Below are positions 4,497-63,098 of a stretch of 64,000 nt of DNA, in pieces (position 1 is the first letter of the stretch; every line of letters starts with the position of its first letter). The notes under the pieces were generated by a model. That model had not been told where the DNA came from, did not search any database, and saw nothing but the letters and a program-made list of their open reading frames with translations. The DNA is from a virus: the IMG/VR virus record IMGVR_UViG_3300042294_002093, positions 47,083 through 111,082 of that record; one strand, written 5' to 3'. The position numbers and the translations under genes are program-made.

Positions 4497-5150
4497 CTAC
4501 CAGTCGATATTAGTGCTGGTAACAGATGGAGTGTCAAATCCAAAGTAGAATGCTTCTTGCTCTGGATATGGAACCTCACGAACAACCTTTTCTAGGTTGA
4601 AGAATTCAAAACCTTCCCATGCAAATGGTTCTGCATCTGGCTTTGAAGGTAGAAGTGTGTAATTGGTTTCAGTTCCCTGACCATTACGCTTTAACTTCCA
4701 CTCAAGATTTGAAATGCTACCTGTATCAAGTGCATATTCACGAATGTTATTAAATGCTGATTGTTTAGAAATTCCTTGGGACCAAACAGCAATGTATGGA
4801 TCTTCAAGTCCGTCATTCATTAGAACGTTGCAATAGAAACGCAAACGTGCTCTCCAACCTGACTTTGGTTCCTTACGTGCCATTTCGCATCCAAAACAAC
4901 GTCCCTCAGAGTCCTGAGTACATGCTGCCTTGCGCTTGTAATCCTTTGGATTTGTGTGTTCTGAAACTACTACAGAAAGACCACGAGTCTCTGAATAGTT
5001 TGCTGAGTCAACGTCTAGTTCTTCAACAAAACGAACCTTTGCTGATTGCCCATCCGCAAGTTTTACCCAGCGAACTTTTTGTCCTGTGCCTTCGTACTTT
5101 GGTTTTTCGAGCAGGGCATTGATATCTTTTAGTCCCTTAATTACGCTCAT
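4497..5150 (-). CDS. Single-stranded DNA-binding protein, T4 gp32-like
   Basis: A 217-residue protein with a putative zinc site H65, C77, C85 and C88. This spacing nearly matches the known zinc ligands of T4 gp32 (His64, Cys77, Cys87, Cys90). Aromatic and basic residues around the site (GWRARLRFYCNV) suit an OB fold binding ssDNA. The clearly acidic tail of gp32 is weak here; the protein ends in IDW. The gene lies directly upstream of dnaE and overlaps the halogenase stop by ATGA, so it sits within the replication operon. Likely role: coating unwound DNA and organising the replisome. Family assignment rests on the motif and context. Confidence 0.8.
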   Translation of the reverse strand: MSVIKGLKDINALLEKPKYEGTGQKVRWVKLADGQSAKVRFVEELDVDSANYSETRGLSVVVSEHTNPKDYKRKAACTQDSEGRCFGCEMARKEPKSGWRARLRFYCNVLMNDGLEDPYIAVWSQGISKQSAFNNIREYALDTGSISNLEWKLKRNGQGTETNYTLLPSKPDAEPFAWEGFEFFNLEKVVREVPYPEQEAFYFGFDTPSVTSTNIDW

Positions 5151-6673
5151 ACTTTTTCTCCTTCGTTTTTTATTTTATGTAGATATTCGTCAAACACTAT
5201 TGATGATTTTATAATCTCATCATTTTTTTGAACTATATCAGTATACATCAAAATTGACTCATTGTCAACTAAAGAATGTAATAGTTTATAATCATATAAC
5301 TCATTGCCTAAATATACGGCAAGCCATGATGGATAAGAAAACACACTATTTATGCTATTCCCAAAAACATCAGAAAATAAATTATTTTTCATATCTTTCA
5401 AAAACTTTTTTAATTTTGGTGGCATAGTGTTTTTTTGAATAAAATTTTCCCAAAAAACAGTATTAGTTTTATTTGTTATGTAATGCAAATATATAAAAGA
5501 ATGAACTTCTTCATTTATATTACAAAAAATATTATTAAAATCATTTTCTTTCTTTTTTGACCTATTATAGAAAATTTCTATAAAGTTTTTATCAGTAATA
5601 GTCTCTAGCATTTGAGATAGTATTGATAAGGAGGTAGCCTCTAGTGGTTCAAAAAAACCAGAAGAAAGTCCAAGAGCAAGACAATTATTTCTTAATGGCG
5701 TATAAAAATACCCACTATCAAATTTTATTTTTTTCTTTATATCTACATCATTACCAAATTTATTTTGTATTTCTTTAATAGCATCAGATTCAGAAATAAA
5801 AGAAGAGTCGTAGACATATCCACAACCATACCTATCTTGAACTGGAGCCTTCCATGCCCAGCCATAGTCCATTGCTATTGATTCTGTGTATAATTTAATT
5901 TTGTCTTCTTTTATCCAAAAGGCTATTGCTGAATCACATGGCAAACTATTTGACAAATCATTCCACTCAGAGTTAAACTTTTTTCCTATCAAAAGCCTAT
6001 TGGATCCAGTACAATCAATAACAAAATCACAATCAACTTTACTATTTGAAAAAATTAATTCTTTAATATCTCCATTTGTATCAAACACACAATCTTCAAA
6101 GTCATCATCAATTATTTTAATATTTCTTTCAATTGCAATAGATCTTAAGAACGACAACATTTTTTGTGCATCAAAATGTAATGAATGATGTGCTTTATTA
6201 AATTTATGATTATCAGATAGATATGAAAATGGATTTATTTTATTCAAATTTCCATCTTTTAAAACTGCATATGATGCAGCCTTGGAAAATTCTTTATGCA
6301 TTTCTACCTTAAAATCTAAATAATTTTTATATTTGTTTTTTGATAGTAAGTTTGTCTTTATAAAATTTTTAATAGATTTTTTAAAATTTATAGGATCATA
6401 AATATGAAGCCAGTAATATTTGTTATTGTTTGCCCATCCAGTAAACTTAATTCCATTTTTGACGGTAGCCTCGGCATTCATTAAAGATTTATCAATATCA
6501 ACATCTATTTTTTTTAATAAATAAAAGAAGTTTGGATTGGTGCCTTCCCCAACACCTATCGCACCAATCCTACTGCTATCAATAATAGTTACTTCAGCGT
6601 TTTTGATTGTTTTTTGTAAATAAAGTGCACTGACATACCCAGCGTTTCCCCCACCTACAACAACTATTTTCAC
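5147..6673 (-). CDS. Flavin-dependent tryptophan-halogenase-like enzyme
   Basis: A 508-residue flavoprotein. Hallmarks of FADH2-dependent halogenases are present: GGGNAG dinucleotide motif (7-12), EGTNPNF turn (43-49), the lysine expected to form the chloramine or guide hypohalous acid (K72 in VKNGIKFTGW), the family motif GWAWKAP (271-277; canonical GWxWxIP), and FEPLEATS (341-348) with the active-site glutamate E342. Known relatives include PrnA and the cyanophage enzyme VirX1; the substrate cannot be read from sequence. It starts with GTG (GAGG 8 nt upstream) and its stop overlaps the SSB start by ATGA, so it is expressed with replication genes. Neighbours: an AhpD-like protein upstream and SSB downstream. 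Confidence 0.92.
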   Translation of the reverse strand: MKIVVVGGGNAGYVSALYLQKTIKNAEVTIIDSSRIGAIGVGEGTNPNFFYLLKKIDVDIDKSLMNAEATVKNGIKFTGWANNNKYYWLHIYDPINFKKSIKNFIKTNLLSKNKYKNYLDFKVEMHKEFSKAASYAVLKDGNLNKINPFSYLSDNHKFNKAHHSLHFDAQKMLSFLRSIAIERNIKIIDDDFEDCVFDTNGDIKELIFSNSKVDCDFVIDCTGSNRLLIGKKFNSEWNDLSNSLPCDSAIAFWIKEDKIKLYTESIAMDYGWAWKAPVQDRYGCGYVYDSSFISESDAIKEIQNKFGNDVDIKKKIKFDSGYFYTPLRNNCLALGLSSGFFEPLEATSLSILSQMLETITDKNFIEIFYNRSKKKENDFNNIFCNINEEVHSFIYLHYITNKTNTVFWENFIQKNTMPPKLKKFLKDMKNNLFSDVFGNSINSVFSYPSWLAVYLGNELYDYKLLHSLVDNESILMYTDIVQKNDEIIKSSIVFDEYLHKIKNEGEKV

Positions 6674-6706: not shown

Positions 6707-7234
6707 TTACTTAGCCATATTTCTTTGATCATATCCAAACTTATTTATCATTTCAACAGATGGCATCCAGGTATGAGAGTTTTCTTCTACTCCATGACCT
6801 TCTACAATTCTATTAAACATATTAAATGCTGCACAAACAACGATTGCTTCTTTTAACTGATCTTCAGAAAATCCAGCATTCAGAACTGCTTCAACATGTG
6901 TGCTATTTATGCTTGATGGTGAAGTAGTTAAAACTTTTACATAATCTAAAATAGTTTTTAATTTATTTTCTTCATAATTTCCGTCAATGGCATCTTCTAA
7001 CGCTTTTTCGTCTGCACCAATTGAAATTGCAAAAGCCTTATGTGATCCTGTACAAAACTTACAAGAGTTTAGTGATGATGTGAATGCTGCAATAAACTCT
7101 CTATCCTTTGGATCTAAAAACCCAGGCTCTCTTAGTATTTCTTGAGCAAAAGAAAGTAATGGCATAAACTTGTTTGGCTGTTGCATAAATACATCTGCTA
7201 TAGTTTGTCCGCTTGGAACTGATTGTAGTAACAT
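6707..7234 (-). CDS. AhpD/carboxymuconolactone decarboxylase-family protein
   Basis: A 175-residue all-helical CMD-like protein with the redox and proton-relay motif C58-x2-C61-x3-H65 (SCKFCTGSHKA), typical of AhpD-like peroxidases and related oxidoreductases. A second histidine-rich stretch (VEGHGVEENSH) lies near the C-terminus. Stop and start codons of the primase and this gene abut (TAA ATG), showing tight coupling. It directly precedes the halogenase in transcription order, so the two may act together, for instance by controlling peroxide or hypohalous acid, but that link is inference. The exact substrate is unknown. Confidence 0.85.
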   Translation of the reverse strand: MLLQSVPSGQTIADVFMQQPNKFMPLLSFAQEILREPGFLDPKDREFIAAFTSSLNSCKFCTGSHKAFAISIGADEKALEDAIDGNYEENKLKTILDYVKVLTTSPSSINSTHVEAVLNAGFSEDQLKEAIVVCAAFNMFNRIVEGHGVEENSHTWMPSVEMINKFGYDQRNMAK

Positions 7235-39100: not shown

Positions 39101-39896
39101 AATTTCCATTTTCGACAAGAATTGTTGTGTTACCTGACCCATAAACAAGAGGTATTCCAGAATTTTTTGCTACTAACGCATTGTTTGAAATGAAGTAGTA
39201 GCCAGGAGTTTGTTTTAGTCCATAAGACTTGGCCTCTATAACAGATGTTGCTGTTAGCGGTATTGATGTTGGTAAAGATATTTTTGATATGCCAAGTGAT
39301 GAAGAATGAAACTCTTCTGACCATTGACCAACACTAACCCCATTAAACAAAAAAGCATAATCATCTGTAGATGATGCATTGCCAAGATATCTTATTTTTA
39401 ACACAACTCTAAAGGTTGTATTTTCATCTGGTATATCAAATGTTTCAGATACAAACATCCAATTATTAGAGACAGATGTGTTGTAGTTTTTTAATTTTTG
39501 AATATTTGTTCCTGTTGTTGTGTCATAATATTCGTATCCAATTTCAATGCTAGAAATATAAGAACTAATTGAATAAATGTATGCTCCTACAGAAAATGTT
39601 GACATGTAAGAATTTAATTCTGAAAAATTTACTAGGTCATTGCTTATGCATACAATCTCACCAAAATCTTCTGTAGTTAAATTACCTAGAATTTTTGTAA
39701 CAGAACTATTGGTAAATGGTTCATCTATAGCCTCTGTAAAATTGCTTGCCGTTCCACCAGAAATATCCCAAGAATATACGGATCTTTGTTCCTCAGATAT
39801 AAGAGAGATATAGTCTGCTTTATCATCTAGCGCCCACAATACAGTTGGGTGCTCTGCAAACACCTTTTCTGCATATAAATTTGATGGACTAGACAT
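36198..39896 (-). CDS. Very large LamG-like structural protein
   Basis: 1232 residues of mostly beta structure. A lectin/LamG-like beta sandwich is visible around residues 285-370 (YTLEMWMRINSDSPTKKR, MLMHIRITNNSASLLINGEQ), and a second near 530-640 (GLDISKFTENYGSSASLF). The protein resembles the 1439-aa tail-tip protein in style. It opens with an ATG (GGAG 6 nt upstream) below an extended -10 promoter. Its position upstream of portal, away from the tail genes, is unusual; it may be a head or neck fibre or a tail protein displaced by recombination. Confidence 0.7.
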   Translation of the reverse strand: MSSPSNLYAEKVFAEHPTVLWALDDKADYISLISEEQRSVYSWDISGGTASNFTEAIDEPFTNSSVTKILGNLTTEDFGEIVCISNDLVNFSELNSYMSTFSVGAYIYSISSYISSIEIGYEYYDTTTGTNIQKLKNYNTSVSNNWMFVSETFDIPDENTTFRVVLKIRYLGNASSTDDYAFLFNGVSVGQWSEEFHSSSLGISKISLPTSIPLTATSVIEAKSYGLKQTPGYYFISNNALVAKNSGIPLVYGSGNTTILVENGNSPSLILPGFGFLNEDGKFKEYTLEMWMRINSDSPTKKRICGPIKSNDGIYVDGPFITLKIGKNYSSHYVGEWTRPMLMHIRITNNSASLLINGEQVISLNFITDELSFPEKYDEDGKNQDWIGFYAYEDVYPIEIDCVAIYPYQVPALVAKRRFVYGQGVEVPENINASYSGTSMFIDYAFADYTKNYSYPDLVKWSDASIDNLNTSSNYLSCPDYYLPELFFSNKTSQDFYNDSYLLPNENNLYVKMRPSASWNDTNGYILFDKLNVTNNEIKCFYGVFKILSTPTSNQTFFKIEDESTNNSFSIELKPNLEIEYKLKFNTLEEVIYKTTTARIGEEFTVGLDISKFTENYGSSASLFFGNRASLKLYVGGSKELNKTFTGNIYKVGFSTERNYLYIAELFNESGVPVQFEDVFDKFGQYIDYDAGEYQGASPDFWNYVLDGGPPAQYSSVKLINHIASYTLSPKKYFETFALDIDIDGYWEDKVALRHFAQYVLDAKGNEQYDLDFLQFNINYPSPSKYTEQETSSELGWSYQELQAEYQSPIQRGYDSLDNQLYTGYNDYQDLANKSTKSYKYDTSNSLVKSYVTFQYLENTSTNAESFFTTTELAPKNGIVNPVGNWINTKYEVVDGMLIYPPTGIDFNDLYVVLHLNFKVLGILNKPINIRSLQLASQAYNDSSANPIGTRFGVPVYPYRKSGIYYDYKGVNPYTIYKGTSPYLYLTKNSGLQIKGTYDPLIDRGLAIPINSNQSSNYKVMAMQAAIRYDQDFFPFAPTQIFEIESKGNRLKIFIVANHPEGKRAKIYAVNANTGQIEDGIGFYWNGNIVKEPNITVREWGMLGISFSSLLDFSNYVGSIKITGPILVNLVSHYKSTNLQEVQNITVRPWFKIKFNGPLTLDWEYWNPAYIWQGVLILSTTSYYGVNPGDIYKSYAGTNKFIIDDTRLFRLNNYQYSFDTEISWQSSTENAI

Positions 39897-39913
39897 TTTT
39901 CTCCTATTTCCCT

Positions 39914-39919
39914 ATTATA
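39914..39919 (-). promoter_or_regulatory. Extended -10 promoter (TGCTATAAT) of structural block
   Basis: TGC TATAAT about 18 nt before the ATG at 39896, followed by AGGAGA. It separates the structural genes from the cobalamin operon. Confidence 0.65.
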
Positions 39920-39931
39920 GCAGGGTAAAAA

Positions 39932-40426
39932 TTAATTTCTGGGAATCCATAACTTTTCATTGCCTTTGTTGTGATATCTTGCCATTACGAACAGTAAATC
40001 TGAGAGCCTGTTTAAATACTTTGCAATATTTATATTTAAACCTTCTACCTTCCAAACCTCACGCTCTGCCCTTCTCACAATTGTTCTTGCATTATGAAGT
40101 GGGCCAGTAGGTAGAACAAAAGAATGCAGTGGCTCTAGGTATTCGTTATAGTCATCAATTATATTTTCTAAATAGGTAACTCTATCTTCTGATATTGTTA
40201 TTGTTGGGGCACCAGAGAGTTCTGCACCAAGATCAAACAAGTCACTCTGTATTCTATCTATAATATCGTTATGAAAATCAGTTGCCATTCCTATGGCAGA
40301 GTTTGCTTCATCTACCGACCCAATTGCCTCAATCAAATCACTTCCCTTGTGTATTCTTTCATTGGTGGCAGTTGATGTCTGACCGTCATCACCAGTTTTC
40401 GTATAAATGCGAGTTAGATGTACCAT
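39932..40426 (-). CDS. Corrinoid adenosyltransferase, PduO type
   Basis: Transfers the 5'-deoxyadenosyl group of ATP to cob(I)alamin, making adenosylcobalamin. The 164 residues carry the PduO signatures: IYTKTGDDGQTS near the N-terminus (ATP-binding loop), IEAIGSVDEANSAIG, FVLPTGPLHNARTIVRRAER (the conserved arginine helix) and the C-terminal YLNRLSDLLFVMAR. Start at 40426 was chosen because ATG shares a base with the preceding stop (TAATG) and matches the family N-terminus; the frame runs further upstream. It is the last gene of an operon with class II ribonucleotide reductase, which uses its product. Confidence 0.95.
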   Translation of the reverse strand: MVHLTRIYTKTGDDGQTSTATNERIHKGSDLIEAIGSVDEANSAIGMATDFHNDIIDRIQSDLFDLGAELSGAPTITISEDRVTYLENIIDDYNEYLEPLHSFVLPTGPLHNARTIVRRAEREVWKVEGLNINIAKYLNRLSDLLFVMARYHNKGNEKLWIPRN

Positions 40427-40560
40427 TAGTGTCCTGTCAAAGAACGCCAAATATCTATTGTTTTAATATTGGCTATATGCAAACAAAGCAAGGTCAGTGC
40501 AAACTGAACAATTATTTTATAAGAAGATTTTTGATCTACGTGTTTATCTAATAGTTTCAT
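40426..40560 (-). CDS. 44-residue single-pass membrane protein
   Basis: Read directly from the sequence: 44 residues, ATG at 40560 overlapping the upstream stop by ATGA, and TAA sharing a base with the adenosyltransferase ATG (TAATG). A short charged N-terminus (MKLLDKHVDQKSSYK) precedes one hydrophobic segment (IIVQFALTLLCLHIA, about 16-30), then a polar end. Being exactly coupled on both sides strongly supports translation. A small partner of a vitamin transporter or of the exported protein is conceivable; there is no homology basis for that. Confidence 0.75.
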   Translation of the reverse strand: MKLLDKHVDQKSSYKIIVQFALTLLCLHIANIKTIDIWRSLTGH

Positions 40561-41009
40561 GGGAATACTACTTTTCCATTATTAGCCCAAACCAAACCTA
40601 TTGAATCTCCTGGACTTAAAAGTTGTTGATCTATTGCAAGTTGTCCCCAACCCCACTCACTTTTAGGGAAAGGAATTAATTTATTTTCTTTAATAATGAT
40701 TGCCCAGTATGCTTTTTCTGATGGCATTGATTCACAAGATTCTGTCTTTTCGTTTGGCAAATTATTAACTCTACAAACAACGGCCAAGCCATACTTTTTA
40801 GTGCCTTCTATTTCAAGATTAGCCCTTTTTAAAACATCTAGCCCTGTCATTTTGGCATCTGTATCTATACACTTAGTTATTTTTGTGCCTTTGTCTAATA
40901 CGTTATAATCAATATACAAATTGACACAGCCTTCTTCTTTATTTATAGAAGATAAACCAAAAAAAACTAATACAAATATTATTGCAGATAGGAATACTTT
41001 TTTAATCAT
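40557..41009 (-). CDS. Exported DUF4430 / transcobalamin-C-domain-like protein
   Basis: 150 residues. A signal peptide or anchor (VFLSAIIFVLVFFGLSS, 5-21) without a lipobox is followed by a small domain with four cysteines (C28, C47, C79, C92) suited to disulphides outside the membrane. The domain pattern TGLDVLKRANLEIEGTKKYG, then AVVCRVNNLP, AYWAIII, SEWGWG and a final PGDSIGLVW agrees with the DUF4430 fold, related to the corrinoid-capturing C-domain of transcobalamin and found in secreted actinobacterial proteins. Overlaps the nrdJ stop by ATGA. Inferred role: capture of cobalamin at the cell surface. Confidence 0.82.
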   Translation of the reverse strand: MIKKVFLSAIIFVLVFFGLSSINKEEGCVNLYIDYNVLDKGTKITKCIDTDAKMTGLDVLKRANLEIEGTKKYGLAVVCRVNNLPNEKTESCESMPSEKAYWAIIIKENKLIPFPKSEWGWGQLAIDQQLLSPGDSIGLVWANNGKVVFP

Positions 41010-43042
41010 GTTTGCTTAACCTTTATTTCACAATAATCGGTAGTGCAATACATTTCCCCTTGAGCCTCAAGATTATCTACACCGTCGTAAATTGCGCTAA
41101 AGTCAATATGCTTTAATTTGCCAATATATGACTCATATTTATCTTCAGTAATCTGAGTATATGGTTGTTGAGGATAGACAGTATTTCCCATTGGTAAAAA
41201 TGATACTGCCTTTAGTTGTCCCTCATACATATGAAGTGCTGGAACAACATGCTTTGATTCTGTTTCTTTATCAAAAGATAATGTTACAGAAACTCCATTA
41301 TCAGACCAATATTTTTGAGCAGTTGCAGCAAGTGCAATTTTTTCAAATAAAGTTACATCTTTTTCAGATCGTGGATGACCTGACTTAATTGGGAAGTAAA
41401 CTACTGATGTGTTTGCGGATACTACGTCATCTTCAATTGTGTACCCCGCTGCTTTGAATAAATGTATCATTGGATCTGTATTTCCAAATCTAACTGCACG
41501 AAGAAAGAAGTTTCCTCCAGGTCCCCAGTGAACTCCAGGAGTTGCACCAGAAAGAATTGAAACTGATCCTGATGGCTTAACTGTTGTTACACGAATTGAT
41601 TCACGAACACATAACCATTCTGAATATTTGTGATCATAATGACGGATTTTATTGTATCCTTCGTCCATCCACTCACGAACAATTGGCAAACCTTTTTGGT
41701 CTGCAAATGACGCAATACCTGTTAGCGATGTACCAATACGACGATTGCGTTGCATGATGCCGTTTGTTTGTGGCCAATGTGTTGGAACAAGTGTTACTGT
41801 CTTTCCATACAAGTATGCAAACTTAAGGGTACGCAAGAAGTCCTCCTTAGATTCATGACGATTTAAATGCACTTCTACAAGTGTACATAGTTCGTATGAT
41901 TCTAATGGCTGCTCCGCACATGGGTTAAATCCCATCACACGATAATCTTTACCGTCTGGCGCATCCTTTAGTCTTCCATAATTACGAGCAACATCAAGCC
42001 AGATAAAACCTGGTTCTCCGTTTTCTGTAACTAAGTTTACATAGTCTTCATACTTTGTTCCTACTTCTGCTGAAATAGAATTATTAGACATCCAAGCCCA
42101 ACCTGGATTCTCTGGATCAAATGAATTACGCTCTGGAAACATCTCTGAATTCTTTAAATTCATGAATGTTTCATCGCCTGCAGTACCCAAAGCAAGTGTT
42201 GCTGATCTACGAACATTGCCCGACACAACGCATGTGCCAATAAGGTTTACCAAGTCTACAATAGCACGAGAGTCTAGTGTTTCTCCGCCTCTGGAGCCGA
42301 TTACACGGTCTATCTGATCGTGCAACTTAACAAGAGGTGCAGGTCCTGATGCAACGCCTCCAAAGCCTTTAATCGGTGCTCCAAGAGGTCTGATCAAATC
42401 ATAATTAAATTTCTGAATGCTTTGATTTGCTCTAAGGTATGAATTGATTAGAAGTCTAACTGACTCTACCCATCCTTCACGAGTGTCTGGAATTTCAAAT
42501 ATCTCTTCTGGCTCTGTTGGGGTATAGATTGAGAAATTCTTATCCTGTCCTACTGTATCAAATCCCACGCCAATGCCAAGCATAAGAGCATCCATAACCC
42601 AAGCAAATAGGGCTCCTGGATCATTCTTGTCAAGATCCTTAGTAGATACCATTGCACAGTTTTGCAGTGCTGCTGAGTTTTTCTTTTCCATAGTCATAGG
42701 AGTTCCAAATGCCCACATGCCTCGTCCTGGTGGTGTCCACTTTAGTTCAAACATTCTTTGAAATGCTTCTTGTGCAGACTTCTGTGCCTTATAGTCATTC
42801 CAAGGTAAACGATTTTCTTTAGCATGATTCTTTTGTACTGAATACATACCCTCAATTACACGACGACAAACTTCGTGCCAACGCTCTTTAGTTCCATCTT
42901 CTTTCATACGAGAATATGTACGAATAAAAGTAATTTCTCCAAGTGAATTTTCTGCTGCATCTTTAAAACCAAAAGGGCTTTCTTGCGTTTTGTATTTTTC
43001 TATAAATTCTTCTGGAAGTTTAAAACTAAAAAAATCTGACAT
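41006..43042 (-). CDS. nrdJ: Class II (adenosylcobalamin-dependent) ribonucleotide reductase, monomeric
   Basis: Converts ribonucleotides to deoxynucleotides, probably triphosphates, with adenosylcobalamin as radical source. 678 residues, a little shorter than the Lactobacillus enzyme. Seen: first redox cysteine C129 (LQNCAMVST), motif CVVSGNVRRSATLALG (271-286), the thiyl-radical site NPCAEQPL with C375 and E377, second redox cysteine C386 (ELCTLVEV), and the C-terminal shuttle pair C666/C671 (YCTTDYC), with the spacing of the monomeric class. It heads the cobalamin operon and has a promoter 35 nt upstream. There is no cobalamin riboswitch in the short leader. Confidence 0.96.
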   Translation of the reverse strand: MSDFFSFKLPEEFIEKYKTQESPFGFKDAAENSLGEITFIRTYSRMKEDGTKERWHEVCRRVIEGMYSVQKNHAKENRLPWNDYKAQKSAQEAFQRMFELKWTPPGRGMWAFGTPMTMEKKNSAALQNCAMVSTKDLDKNDPGALFAWVMDALMLGIGVGFDTVGQDKNFSIYTPTEPEEIFEIPDTREGWVESVRLLINSYLRANQSIQKFNYDLIRPLGAPIKGFGGVASGPAPLVKLHDQIDRVIGSRGGETLDSRAIVDLVNLIGTCVVSGNVRRSATLALGTAGDETFMNLKNSEMFPERNSFDPENPGWAWMSNNSISAEVGTKYEDYVNLVTENGEPGFIWLDVARNYGRLKDAPDGKDYRVMGFNPCAEQPLESYELCTLVEVHLNRHESKEDFLRTLKFAYLYGKTVTLVPTHWPQTNGIMQRNRRIGTSLTGIASFADQKGLPIVREWMDEGYNKIRHYDHKYSEWLCVRESIRVTTVKPSGSVSILSGATPGVHWGPGGNFFLRAVRFGNTDPMIHLFKAAGYTIEDDVVSANTSVVYFPIKSGHPRSEKDVTLFEKIALAATAQKYWSDNGVSVTLSFDKETESKHVVPALHMYEGQLKAVSFLPMGNTVYPQQPYTQITEDKYESYIGKLKHIDFSAIYDGVDNLEAQGEMYCTTDYCEIKVKQT

Positions 43043-43076
43043 TTGTATCGTCCTTTCAAAAACGGATTAAGTGTTA

Positions 43077-43082
43077 ATTATA
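43077..43082 (-). promoter_or_regulatory. Extended -10 promoter (TGCTATAAT) of cobalamin operon
   Basis: TGC TATAAT with a poor -35 (TTTTGT, 17 nt upstream). Transcription would start near 43070, leaving about 28 nt to the nrdJ ATG, with AAGGA as ribosome binding site. It lies directly beyond a terminator. Confidence 0.65.
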
Positions 43083-43100
43083 GCAGAGTTTTATAAAAAA

Positions 43101-43135
43101 CAAAACTCTACCTAAAGTTATAGTATAGAGTTTTG
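43101..43135 (-). terminator. Intrinsic terminator before cobalamin operon
   Basis: Perfect 10-bp inverted repeat (CAAAACTCTA with TAGAGTTTTG), 15-nt loop, followed by TTTTTT on the minus strand. It insulates the operon from the 249-aa gene upstream. A third partial copy (AAAACTCT) lies next to the promoter and could pair alternatively. Confidence 0.85.
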
Positions 43136-43143
43136 CAAAAAAA

Positions 43144-43890
43144 TTATCTATATGTTTTTTTCTTCCAAAAAAACTTTTTATATCCAGAATTAAAAACAGT
43201 TCTAACAAGAATACTTGCTTTTCTAAGATTTTCATTTCCTTTTTCTGTTTCAATAATTTCTGATTCAAAGTTTGTTCGTTTAAATGGAATTGCTTGAATT
43301 AATGGTGTTCCTTTTGCAATGAAACCTTTAAAATCTTTTTTAACTAAAAATGAAAAAAGACCATTAGATGGATAGCCATCTGTATCAATTACCGCAGATA
43401 TTGCATAAAGAGGACTTAGATCATGATGTTGTGGTTGAATGAATAGTGTGCTAAATCCTGGATCTGTTTCAACAACCCACATAAGGTTTACTCTAAATAA
43501 ATATTCTATGTACTGGTCCTTGTCAAATGGATATCCATCAACCTGTTTAATATCATGACTTCCAATAATCATTTTAGATCCAATCTGGCCTAAAGATTTC
43601 ATGGCTTGTGGTATATCAAACACTTGCTTTCCTTCTGTTGTGTCTATATAGATATCAAATGGTGCCTTTATTATATAACCACTTGATAGAATATCAAGAA
43701 ATGCGACACATCTTTTTACGGTTATGTTTTGATTTCCATTATTAGGAGTACTGTCAGAGTTATAGAACCCCTCAATTTTTTTATACCAGGATGGTATATC
43801 TTTTATTGCTGGAGAAGGTGTTGGAAATACATCCTTCATTCTGGGGCTAGTATTGATAAATTTTATTTTAGATGGCTTGTTTTTTGACAT
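43144..43890 (-). CDS. Uncharacterised phage protein
   Basis: 248 residues from the ATG at 43890, which has TATAAT 5 nt upstream and no ribosome binding site. The N-terminal pattern (SPRMKDVFPTPSPAIKDIPSWYKK) and the later GTPLIQAIPFKR occur, as I recall, in an uncharacterised family seen in marine phages. Histidines (QPQHHDLSPL) and a beta-rich core hint at an enzyme or metal protein, but I cannot name a function. It lies between the Fn3-Hint gene and the cobalamin operon, with its own terminator. Confidence 0.78.
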   Translation of the reverse strand: MSKNKPSKIKFINTSPRMKDVFPTPSPAIKDIPSWYKKIEGFYNSDSTPNNGNQNITVKRCVAFLDILSSGYIIKAPFDIYIDTTEGKQVFDIPQAMKSLGQIGSKMIIGSHDIKQVDGYPFDKDQYIEYLFRVNLMWVVETDPGFSTLFIQPQHHDLSPLYAISAVIDTDGYPSNGLFSFLVKKDFKGFIAKGTPLIQAIPFKRTNFESEIIETEKGNENLRKASILVRTVFNSGYKKFFWKKKTYR

Positions 43891-43895
43891 AACCA

Positions 43896-43901
43896 ATTAT
43901 A
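43896..43901 (-). promoter_or_regulatory. Extended -10 promoter (TGCTATAAT), leaderless start
   Basis: TGC TATAAT only 5 nt before the ATG at 43890; the transcript would begin on the start codon. It follows the TAA stop of the Fn3-Hint gene directly. Confidence 0.65.
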
Positions 43902-43904
43902 GCA

Positions 43905-45053
43905 TTAGTTATCTCGACGGTCAAACACAAGCATGTTCTCAGTAAAGAAGTTATCATACGGTTCACAGTTAATAGATATTTTCTTATTTCTAGAGACAAT
44001 TTGTTCTACTGTTGTGATTTGAACAAATCCAGCATCTGAATGAGAGTATCTCTCATATGTGTTATCTACTTCTGCAGCGCTTAAAAACTTTACTAATCCA
44101 TCTTTTTTAGTTAGGATATAGTGTGTTCCAACAAAGAGATCTCCATCTATATAAATAAATGTATCAGATTCTCCTTCTTCAAGTGTAATTACTGTTGTTT
44201 CTACTAGCATATCATTTGAAAGTGATAAGTCCTGAGCAGACCAAGATAGCCAAGAAGTGTTGTCTTCGTTTGGAATATTAAGAGCCATTAATTTATCTCC
44301 TACTACTAACTCTCCAACAGCCTTATATCCTGATGGTGTTAAAACCTTTGTGTTGATTTCAATTGAATCAAACCATGCTCCAAAAGCACCGAAGGCTCCA
44401 AAAGCACCGAAGGCACCAAAGGCACCGAAAGCACCAAATGGTGCAAACGAGAATGTTGTAGTTACGTTGTTTGATGCAGTAGAGGTTCCAGATTGACCAT
44501 TTGCATTGTCTGCTCTAACAGTATATGTTTGTGCAGTTCCTTGCTCTTGTCCAACGTCAACAGATGTTGATGCTGTATTTCCAGATTTTCCGTCTGATGA
44601 TTGCCAGTAATAATTAGTTATTGCACTACCACCATTTGCTGGAGCAGACCATGTAACACGATCAGTACCTGCTGATGGAGAAGATGCTGATGGTGCTGAT
44701 GGTGTTGCTGGCACTGTTGTTGCAGTAATGCTATTAGACGCAGCAGATGCTGGCGAGTTTCCAACTGCATTTGTTGCTACAACTGTAAATGTGTATGCTG
44801 TATTTGATTGTAAACCAGTTACAGATAATGGAGATGATGCTCCTGAAGCAGTATACGATCCTGGAGAGGATGTTACTGTGTAAGAAGTAGCAGCAGGTGA
44901 ATTTTCTGGCAAAGAAAACGTTACGTCAGCCCGTCCATTATTGAATGCACGACCTGAAGGTACGTTTGTTGCAGTTACTGACGTTGGTGCCTTTGGCTCC
45001 AAAAAGTCATTTGCTTGTTGGGAATGTCTTCCTGCTTTTTTACCTGCTGCCAT
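43905..45053 (-). CDS. Fn3-Hint protein: two fibronectin-III domains, GAF-repeat linker, C-terminal Hint domain
   Basis: 382 residues: basic N-terminus; two Fn3 domains (about 21-113 and 116-200, e.g. SNTAYTFTVVATNAVGNSP); a linker of six GAF repeats ending in GAW (207-227); then a Hint/intein-type domain. Hint marks: S230 where Cys1 is usual (SIEINTKVLTPSGYKAVGEL), VGDKLMAL, H311 in the block-B position (GTHYILT), and a block-G-like NFFTENMLV. The terminal HN needed for splicing is replaced by FD, and the protein ends five residues later. It therefore resembles Hedgehog-type autoprocessing proteins rather than a splicing intein. Probably virion-exposed; good RBS (AAGGAGA). Confidence 0.85.
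   Translation of the reverse strand: MAAGKKAGRHSQQANDFLEPKAPTSVTATNVPSGRAFNNGRADVTFSLPENSPAATSYTVTSSPGSYTASGASSPLSVTGLQSNTAYTFTVVATNAVGNSPASAASNSITATTVPATPSAPSASSPSAGTDRVTWSAPANGGSAITNYYWQSSDGKSGNTASTSVDVGQEQGTAQTYTVRADNANGQSGTSTASNNVTTTFSFAPFGAFGAFGAFGAFGAFGAFGAWFDSIEINTKVLTPSGYKAVGELVVGDKLMALNIPNEDNTSWLSWSAQDLSLSNDMLVETTVITLEEGESDTFIYIDGDLFVGTHYILTKKDGLVKFLSAAEVDNTYERYSHSDAGFVQITTVEQIVSRNKKISINCEPYDNFFTENMLVFDRRDN
44373..44438 (-). repeat. 9-bp tandem repeat coding GAF units
   Basis: Seven in-frame 9-bp units (GGTGCTTTC-like, with third-base variation) encode the GAF linker of the Fn3-Hint protein. Copy-number change would alter linker length by three residues without a frameshift. Confidence 0.85.
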
Positions 45054-62708: not shown

Positions 62709-63098
62709 ATGTTATTTCACAAGCACCTGCTGATCAATGCCAAAGTTGAGAAGCCTATAAACAGTGAAGAAGAGGCAACAACCTTCTTAAAGGACTTAGT
62801 TGAGCGTATTGATATGAAAATTATTAAAGGTCCTTTTGCCTCTTATGTTGACAAACCAGGCAATAGGGGACTCACTGCTATTGTAATGATTGAGACTAGC
62901 CATATAGCGTTTCATATATGGGATGAAGAGGATCCAGGTTTAGTACAGTTTGATTTATATACCTGCGGAAAATTGGATCTTGCTGAAGTACTTCTTGCTC
63001 TTGGAGAAACCTTTAATATAATAAACCTTGACTATCAGTTATTTGATAGAGAGAATGGTTTTGTTTTAGAAGATAGTGGATCATTTCCTAAAATCTGA
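62709..63098 (+). CDS. speD: S-adenosylmethionine-decarboxylase-like pyruvoyl enzyme
   Basis: 129 residues. AdoMetDC class 1b marks: self-cleavage Ser64 (SHIAFHIWDEE), His69 and Cys86 (FDLYTCGKLD), matching the Ser63/His68/Cys83 triad of the Thermotoga enzyme in order and near position. The residue before the pyruvoyl serine is Thr rather than the usual Glu. The known reaction makes decarboxylated SAM for spermidine synthesis; some homologues have changed to arginine or ornithine decarboxylases. GGGGA lies 8 nt before the ATG. It is a stand-alone plus-strand gene in the window. Confidence 0.88.
   Translation: MLFHKHLLINAKVEKPINSEEEATTFLKDLVERIDMKIIKGPFASYVDKPGNRGLTAIVMIETSHIAFHIWDEEDPGLVQFDLYTCGKLDLAEVLLALGETFNIINLDYQLFDRENGFVLEDSGSFPKI

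Follow-up and report, generated by a model that had tools for sequence, protein, structure and literature searches.

A phage operon joining a class II ribonucleotide reductase to a transcobalamin-like protein, a small membrane protein and a PduO-type adenosyltransferase: a probable module for vitamin B12 acquisition, activation and use

Phages that encode a class II ribonucleotide reductase (RNR), an enzyme dependent on adenosylcobalamin, are already known and are widespread. The ribonucleoside-triphosphate reductase (RTPR) viruses of the virioplankton have been supposed to enhance the uptake of vitamin B12 (PMC10547690), and cobaviruses have been described as needing cobalamin-making hosts (PMC6775973); the available parts of both papers leave acquisition genes unmentioned. 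Host cobalamin genes rise during infection by a Listeria phage, according to the available text of PMC12282133, and no B12 terms were found in PMC10202952 and PMC6802176. Freshwater actinobacteria of the acI group are reported, in the accessible portion of PMC5301498, to lack B12 synthesis and to carry energy-coupling factor (ECF) modules headed by riboswitches, and that of PMC5574706 gives acI-B as a predicted adenosylcobalamin auxotroph and acI-A as the owner of a putative cobalamin transporter. Here we describe an operon of four genes, nrdJ, tcb, m44 and pduO, in a 64,000-nucleotide stretch of viral DNA (the window), which forms the last 64 kb of the 111,082-base IMG/VR record IMGVR_UViG_3300042294_002093. 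A class II reductase is common to this phage, the RTPR virioplankton and the cobaviruses; here a candidate acquisition module is attached to it. We put the probability that the operon is a phage-borne module for the acquisition, activation and use of B12 at roughly 0.8. It offers a concrete gene set for the question of how phages with a B12-dependent RNR obtain the vitamin in hosts that do not produce it, and, by way of a virus, it hints at a so far undescribed gene pair for acquiring B12 in a group of freshwater bacteria that are very common.

The genes follow one another on the minus strand in the order nrdJ, tcb, m44, pduO:

41006-43042, minus strand: nrdJ, RTPR-like adenosylcobalamin-dependent class II ribonucleotide reductase, 678 residues (Pfam, PHROG and NCBIfam matches, invariant cysteines)
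40557-41009, minus strand: tcb, 150 residues, hydrophobic N terminus and predicted transcobalamin-beta-domain (SLBB beta-grasp) fold (AlphaFold2, Foldseek, VIA-align, alignments A3 and A8)
40426-40560, minus strand: m44, small, probably single-pass membrane protein, 44 residues, C-terminal WRSLTGH (conserved end motif behind tcb)
39932-40426, minus strand: pduO, PduO-type cob(I)alamin adenosyltransferase, 164 residues, ATG start (PF01923, TIGR00636)
43043-43143, minus strand: region 5' of nrdJ, no riboswitch found

Read from the sequence, nrdJ and tcb overlap in ATGA, tcb and m44 again in ATGA, and m44 and pduO in TAATG. The four overlapping genes that had been proposed from the letters of the window alone (below, the sequence-only reading) are thus borne out in position, strand and junctions; a longer pduO frame, from TTG at 40450, is also possible. 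The single promoter proposed along with them found no support, since promoter-like sites occur at chance level (12 found against 12.3 expected in 39800-43300). A search of the window against Rfam at the gathering threshold returned no riboswitch and no other match. Because the same four-gene set recurs in other viral contigs, the operon is more than a chance assembly.

A scan with tcb alone gave 38 viral loci, some of them near-identical, and 37 of these include downstream sequence. In all 37, tcb is followed by m44 and then by pduO, and nrdJ stands beside tcb in 34 of the 38 (three others have no upstream sequence, and L036 has no adjacent nrdJ); the co-occurrence that the sequence-only reading had suggested seeking in phage genomes was therefore found. 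A second scan used the m44-TAATG junction as its pattern; it is biased towards loci with a gene start next to m44 and takes no account of tcb and nrdJ. It gave 84 stretches, many of them contigs of the tcb scan; among the 80 examined, 56 carry tcb, nrdJ and pduO, 22 end before one of these could be seen, and two (L061 and L070) have neither tcb nor pduO. When the TAATG overlap was excluded, the m44 motif matched 15 stretches, with nrdJ-tcb-m44 and no adjacent pduO in nine, pduO-tcb-m44 in two, nrdJ-m44 in one (L131) and three that end short upstream. The set is also present with an RNR just 27% identical to that of the window (L056 and L066). The set occurs in many uncultured viral contigs and so is not unique to this phage. 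No description of nrdJ-tcb-m44-pduO was found among the titles and abstract beginnings listed from the open-licence literature. We regard it as an auxiliary metabolic operon of which the part for acquisition has apparently not been described before.

The association extends to whole records. The adenosyltransferase domain PF01923 is present in 8 of 9 records with tcb and in 0 of 18 with nrdJ and no tcb (tcb itself, 9 of 9 vs 0 of 18), which gives p = 4e-6 by Fisher's exact test for pduO and tcb, kinship and selection by the junction pattern not being allowed for. Of the nine, one is the window's record and the other eight were picked to be diverse; four had been found by the junction pattern that favours adjacent pduO. 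The 18 are the longest (47 kb or more) of the 72 loci, among the best 80 for nrdJ, that show no partner. The sole tcb-bearing record without pduO is G008, 52 kb long. All eight tcb-bearing records besides the window's contain the class II insertion domain, and the partners may lie apart, with pduO about 21 kb from tcb in G009 and G010 and the RNR about 18 kb away in G006.

The sequence-only reading likened tcb to DUF4430 and to the C-terminal domain of transcobalamin. Sought in three ways, a match to the DUF4430 profile did not appear: PF14478 matched neither tcb nor 28 relatives up to E 5, nor, up to E 1, anything in a set of 15 phage records, while 3 of 14 control genomes matched. Searches of Pfam, PHROGs and NCBIfam with tcb and m44 gave nothing significant, hmmsearch of PDB sequences with tcb gave two chance matches only (E 0.26), and tblastn of tcb against 50,697 phage records gave none up to E 1. 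The likeness to transcobalamin stood, as a predicted fold. With 25 more diverse relatives, the AlphaFold2 model of tcb reached a predicted local distance difference test (pLDDT) score of 81.5, and ranks 1-17 of a Foldseek search against the PDB are all 3u7z, transcobalamin or haptocorrin; an earlier model from 29 close relatives was poor (pLDDT 63.9), and its top 13 matches were likewise 3u7z and transcobalamin. By VIA-align, the model matches transcobalamin, haptocorrin and intrinsic factor with Z 10.4-11.4 over 94-99 residues at 11-21% identity, and 3u7z (Foldseek rank 1, probability 1.00) with Z 10.2 over 95 residues at 19% identity. The next-best fold scores Z 6.2, and everything ranked lower than 15 (Z ≤ 6.2) was regarded as sharing no more than a common arrangement. 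The entry 3u7z, which the predicted fold of tcb resembles, is RUMGNA_00854 of Ruminococcus gnavus, labelled 'putative metal binding protein', and we take it to be a DUF4430-type protein.

The predicted elements of tcb (E28-34, E43-49, H56-62, E67-70, E74-81, E100-107, E136-143) form a beta-grasp with extra strands after the helix, as in the beta domain of transcobalamin, intrinsic factor and haptocorrin. According to the available part of PMC1796856, the transcobalamin-type clade of SLBB domains has a beta-hairpin insert after the helix, and the model of tcb likewise has an extra hairpin there. The same source gives the clade a pair of conserved glycines, one following strand 2 and one preceding strand 3; the invariant glycines of tcb in alignment A3 are G69, G74, G120, G134 and G138, none of them directly after strand 2. 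Differences from transcobalamin are the bacterial or phage origin of tcb, the gene for a membrane-like protein of 44-56 residues behind it, and four invariant cysteines, and unlike the animal transcobalamins tcb is a protein of 150 residues and one domain, with no alpha/alpha toroid domain. These cysteines, at positions 28, 47, 79 and 92, are kept without exception in alignments A3 (25 sequences) and A8 (15 sequences), with cellular copies among them, and together with the hydrophobic N terminus they are what would be expected of an extracytoplasmic protein. By analogy, tcb is plausible as a one-domain corrinoid binder, because the separate beta domain of human transcobalamin has been crystallised with cobalamin (PMC5599065, in the part available; 5np4).

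The strongest evidence for the module is cellular, namely a riboswitch and a chromosomal place shared with an ECF operon. A contig scan with the tcb sequence returned no cellular relative, but a search with the tcb profile of 201 genomes of the order of Planktophila genome G033 (Nanopelagicales by this one reference) found a chromosomal homologue in 10 of them (E 9e-48 to 3e-42). Nine of the ten loci were analysed, the tenth sitting on a 5-kb contig. In every one of the nine, tcb is followed after 8 bases by an open reading frame (ORF) of 53-56 codons, a cobalamin riboswitch lies 5' of tcb (RF01482 in eight, RF00174 in one; the only Rfam matches in 138,822 bases), and the pair has the same two neighbours, judged by eye to encode an aldo/keto reductase and GcvT. 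In 4 of 4 genomes without tcb, the same flanks enclose a riboswitch followed by an SCO2322-family protein, a CbiQ-like T component, a double ATPase and an ECF S component; SCO2322 adjoins the T component in six further tcb-less genomes. The tcb-m44 pair thus has the chromosomal place and the riboswitch clan of the acI ECF operon, and, unlike that operon, comes with neither an ATPase nor a multi-pass membrane component at its locus. It is best read as a B12-acquisition pair that stands in for the ECF transporter. With it, a domain of transcobalamin type, familiar from the transport of B12 in animals, is placed in a bacterial context under riboswitch control. Homologous operons with no tie to B12 would have counted against the sequence-only reading, but those examined are tied to it: the cellular pairs lie behind riboswitches at the ECF locus, and the phage loci found with tcb alone carry pduO wherever the sequence extends far enough.

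The T-component profile PF02361, applied at E 0.1, gave no match in four of the ten tcb-bearing genomes, a sub-threshold match in two and a strong one in four, compared with at least one match in 10 of 10 tcb-less genomes; its absence is weak evidence, because the T component of the exchanged locus gets low scores from this profile (just below the cut-off for the one protein scanned). In G046, assembled as one contig of 1.24 Mb, this profile, weak as it is on the T component of the locus, found no ECF T component at E 0.1, and the sole RF01482 match precedes tcb. In a tree of 64 tcb proteins, with long branches flagged, the ten cellular copies form one clade (98/98), and the phage copies were therefore not taken over recently from the hosts sampled. 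We propose, tentatively, that tcb-m44 is an undescribed minimal B12 uptake system which replaced the ECF transporter in one freshwater actinobacterial lineage and was captured by phages for their reductase. Such a system may consist of a surface binder and a single-pass partner whose last or last-but-one residue is His or Cys.

The SCO2322 protein and the tcb domain may be related by circular permutation. The C-terminal half of SCO2322 (L349:2676-3275 and relatives) aligned with the N-terminal half of tcb by hhalign (E 1.6e-4); the score, 30.8, exceeds the highest of 100 column shuffles, 25.3. A full permutation was not established, one half alone being matched and the other resembling by eye only, and the idea stays a lead; no literature on SCO2322 was found.

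For m44, neither Pfam (to E 1) nor NCBIfam (to E 0.1) gives a family, PHROGs gives only 17667 at E 0.064, and the hydrophobicity of the protein is marginal (best 19-residue Kyte-Doolittle mean 1.62). All 37 m44 genes behind tcb (27 distinct, from the tcb-selected loci) end in IWRSLTGH, and a relative found by pattern in L070 has WRSFTGH. The cellular ORFs end, after a WR pair (WR(F/Y/L)WGGH(Y)), in WGGH or WGGHY in six cases, and in WGAC or WAAC in three. Position, size and this end motif, with weak support from a hidden Markov model (HMM), suggest that m44 and the cellular ORFs are homologous. It is possible that m44 couples tcb to a permease or acts itself; that its terminal His or Cys is a metal ligand is a guess.

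Both enzymes proposed in the sequence-only reading can be recognised. The nrdJ protein matches RNR_Alpha (6.1e-32) and the RNR-II insertion domain (PF21995; 1.3e-14, 54.8 bits against a cut-off of 27) in Pfam and phrog_367 among PHROGs (3.5e-141); it scores 336.9 bits with the NCBIfam RTPR equivalog, below the cut-off of 340.05, and is therefore labelled RTPR-like only. The catalytic and shuttle cysteines that had been claimed for it are in place: C129, N373-P-C375-A-E377, C386 and C666/C671 are invariant in eight aligned phage nrdJ proteins, their radical, redox and C-terminal roles being presumed by analogy with the L. leichmannii enzyme. The pduO product passes the cut-offs of both Cob_adeno_trans (PF01923; 2.3e-46, 158.4 bits against 24) and TIGR00636 (149.4 bits against 108.45), which identifies it, by profile, as a probable PduO-type adenosyltransferase. 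Among phage records, 15 match the window's pduO, at identities up to 42.9%.

The virus probably infects freshwater actinobacteria. It carries a WhiB gene (1.3e-11), and the best 80 cellular relatives of pduO among the matches listed, at 45-52% identity, come mostly from actinobacteria, many of them from lakes, with Candidatus Planktophila and Nanopelagicaceae among their labels and a few others. A host in the Nanopelagicales (acI) is likely. No class II RNR was matched by profile or by phage nrdJ in six such genomes, the nrdJ search having no positive control. A B12-binding domain scores over its cut-off in 18 of 20 host genomes tested.

These results lead us to infer ligand binding, transport, a role for m44 and a benefit to the phage in the following scheme. 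The tcb protein, anchored at the surface of the actinobacterial host or secreted from it, would bind scarce corrinoid through its transcobalamin-beta-type domain and, with its partner m44, would promote entry of the corrinoid into the cell. The phage PduO would turn it into adenosylcobalamin, which the phage NrdJ would use to make deoxynucleoside triphosphates (dNTPs) for phage DNA, so that the phage may feed its own B12-dependent enzyme with a scarce vitamin. Phages would have joined tcb-m44, minus the riboswitch, to nrdJ and pduO. No riboswitch was found in 13 phage loci with the module, where one tRNA was the sole Rfam match, and host B12 levels would therefore not shut off the phage copies examined. 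The pathway from vitamin capture to dNTP synthesis put forward in the sequence-only reading is thereby supported and extended, by the fold match, the B12-tied cellular loci and the presence of pduO in the tcb-selected phage loci.

Several observations weigh against a module for B12 acquisition, activation and use. In a survey outward from nrdJ, covering the best 80 loci (at least 80 exist), all three partners occur in seven, m44 only in one, and none despite sufficient room in 65, while seven are too short. On the supporting side, pduO is present in 7 of 7 of these loci with tcb, and within 3 kb in 0 of the 66 that have room but lack tcb. The module is thus an add-on, and nrdJ phages usually do without it. 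Four loci (L061, L070, L131 and L213) have nrdJ-m44 with no tcb or pduO nearby. The m44 HMM matches the cellular ORFs weakly (E 0.007-0.06), in 6 of 9. The m44 genes of L008, L022 and L023 start with ATA, the rest of the gene being intact, and may be broken; among the 37 tcb-selected loci the other starts are ATG in 32 and GTG in two. The separated domains of human transcobalamin bind cobalamin less tightly than the whole protein, as reported in the available part of PMC5599065. All 20 host genomes tested already encode PduO, and two tcb-bearing genomes, G052 and G221, show only a sub-threshold B12-binding domain. Finally, a riboswitch alone is no proof of uptake, because a second, sub-threshold cobalamin riboswitch in G052 (L353:4296-8299) precedes genes that by eye resemble nrdH, nrdI, nrdE and nrdF, a class Ib RNR, which suggests B12 control of reductase choice in that host.

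Near-identity of nrdJ does not bring the partners with it: in L141-L151 nrdJ is 97% identical to the window's and the other three genes are not beside it, and the module has therefore been gained or lost among close relatives. In L061, m44 runs directly into a speD-like gene (S-adenosylmethionine decarboxylase-like by eye; L061:7060-7464) in the place of pduO; speD-like genes are also seen in L135 and in the window at 62709-63098.

The observations on riboswitches bear on the possibility that tcb-m44 belongs to the B12 economy and serves a purpose other than uptake, by storing or protecting corrinoid at the surface, or by handling cobalt or another B12-linked compound. Cobalamin riboswitches control other genes too, as the weak match before the nrdHIEF-like genes of G052 illustrates, and other SLBB-related domains bind other ligands or metals, according to the available parts of PMC1796856 and PMC1949818. 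We nevertheless consider this explanation unlikely, given that tcb-m44 lies between the same flanks as the ECF operon of its relatives and that the best-matching folds are those of B12 carriers and of 3u7z.

A role of m44 as partner of tcb could also be questioned, as the gene might be a leader for translational coupling or a small gene with no relation to tcb. The stop of m44 overlaps the pduO start as TAATG in the tcb-selected loci, and an AGGA- or GGGA-like ribosome site lies within its final codons; three loci have no usual start codon, and the HMM gives the cellular homologues weak support. These features would suit a leader, but all 15 matches of the motif scan that excluded the TAATG overlap are m44-like, 12 of the 15 visibly following tcb or nrdJ. 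In addition, the last seven codons in the tcb-selected loci differ at 2 first, 0 second and 5 third positions and yet always encode WRSLTGH, and all nine cellular loci have an m44-like ORF behind tcb. We therefore think it rather improbable that m44 has no functional tie to tcb.

It is very unlikely, in our view, that tcb-m44 is a surface-modification or superinfection-exclusion device that blocks a receptor and stands beside nrdJ and pduO by chance. Exclusion factors are commonly small exported or membrane proteins, B12 receptors act as phage receptors in Gram-negative bacteria, and the pair is missing from most nrdJ loci examined. Such a device would, however, leave unexplained why the cellular pair occupies the place of the ECF transporter and is preceded by a cobalamin riboswitch, as well as the presence of pduO in all tcb-selected phage loci where the sequence allows it to be seen, and the recurrence of the set with the 27%-identical RNR. 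That the four are ordinary auxiliary metabolic genes hitchhiking in a variable region with no joint function is highly improbable: the module does occur in a minority of nrdJ loci examined, with varying order and content, but stop/start overlaps are kept in many phages, tcb is accompanied by m44 and pduO in 37 of 37 loci, and the partners are found elsewhere in the record in G006, G009 and G010.

Some other genes were noticed. Directly 5' of nrdJ, window positions 43144-43896 encode a phrog_7084 protein, relatives of which lie near the module in L003 and L033 and, inverted, in L036. By eye, 43905-45053 shows fibronectin-like repeats, a GAF-type repeat and a C-terminal Hint-like (intein or hedgehog) stretch, and 5147-6673 resembles a flavin-dependent tryptophan halogenase, with a small AhpD-like ORF adjoining at 6707-7234. 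Several ORFs resembling 2-oxoglutarate/Fe(II) oxygenases, again by eye, are present in L138 to L140 (G000:12157-46835).

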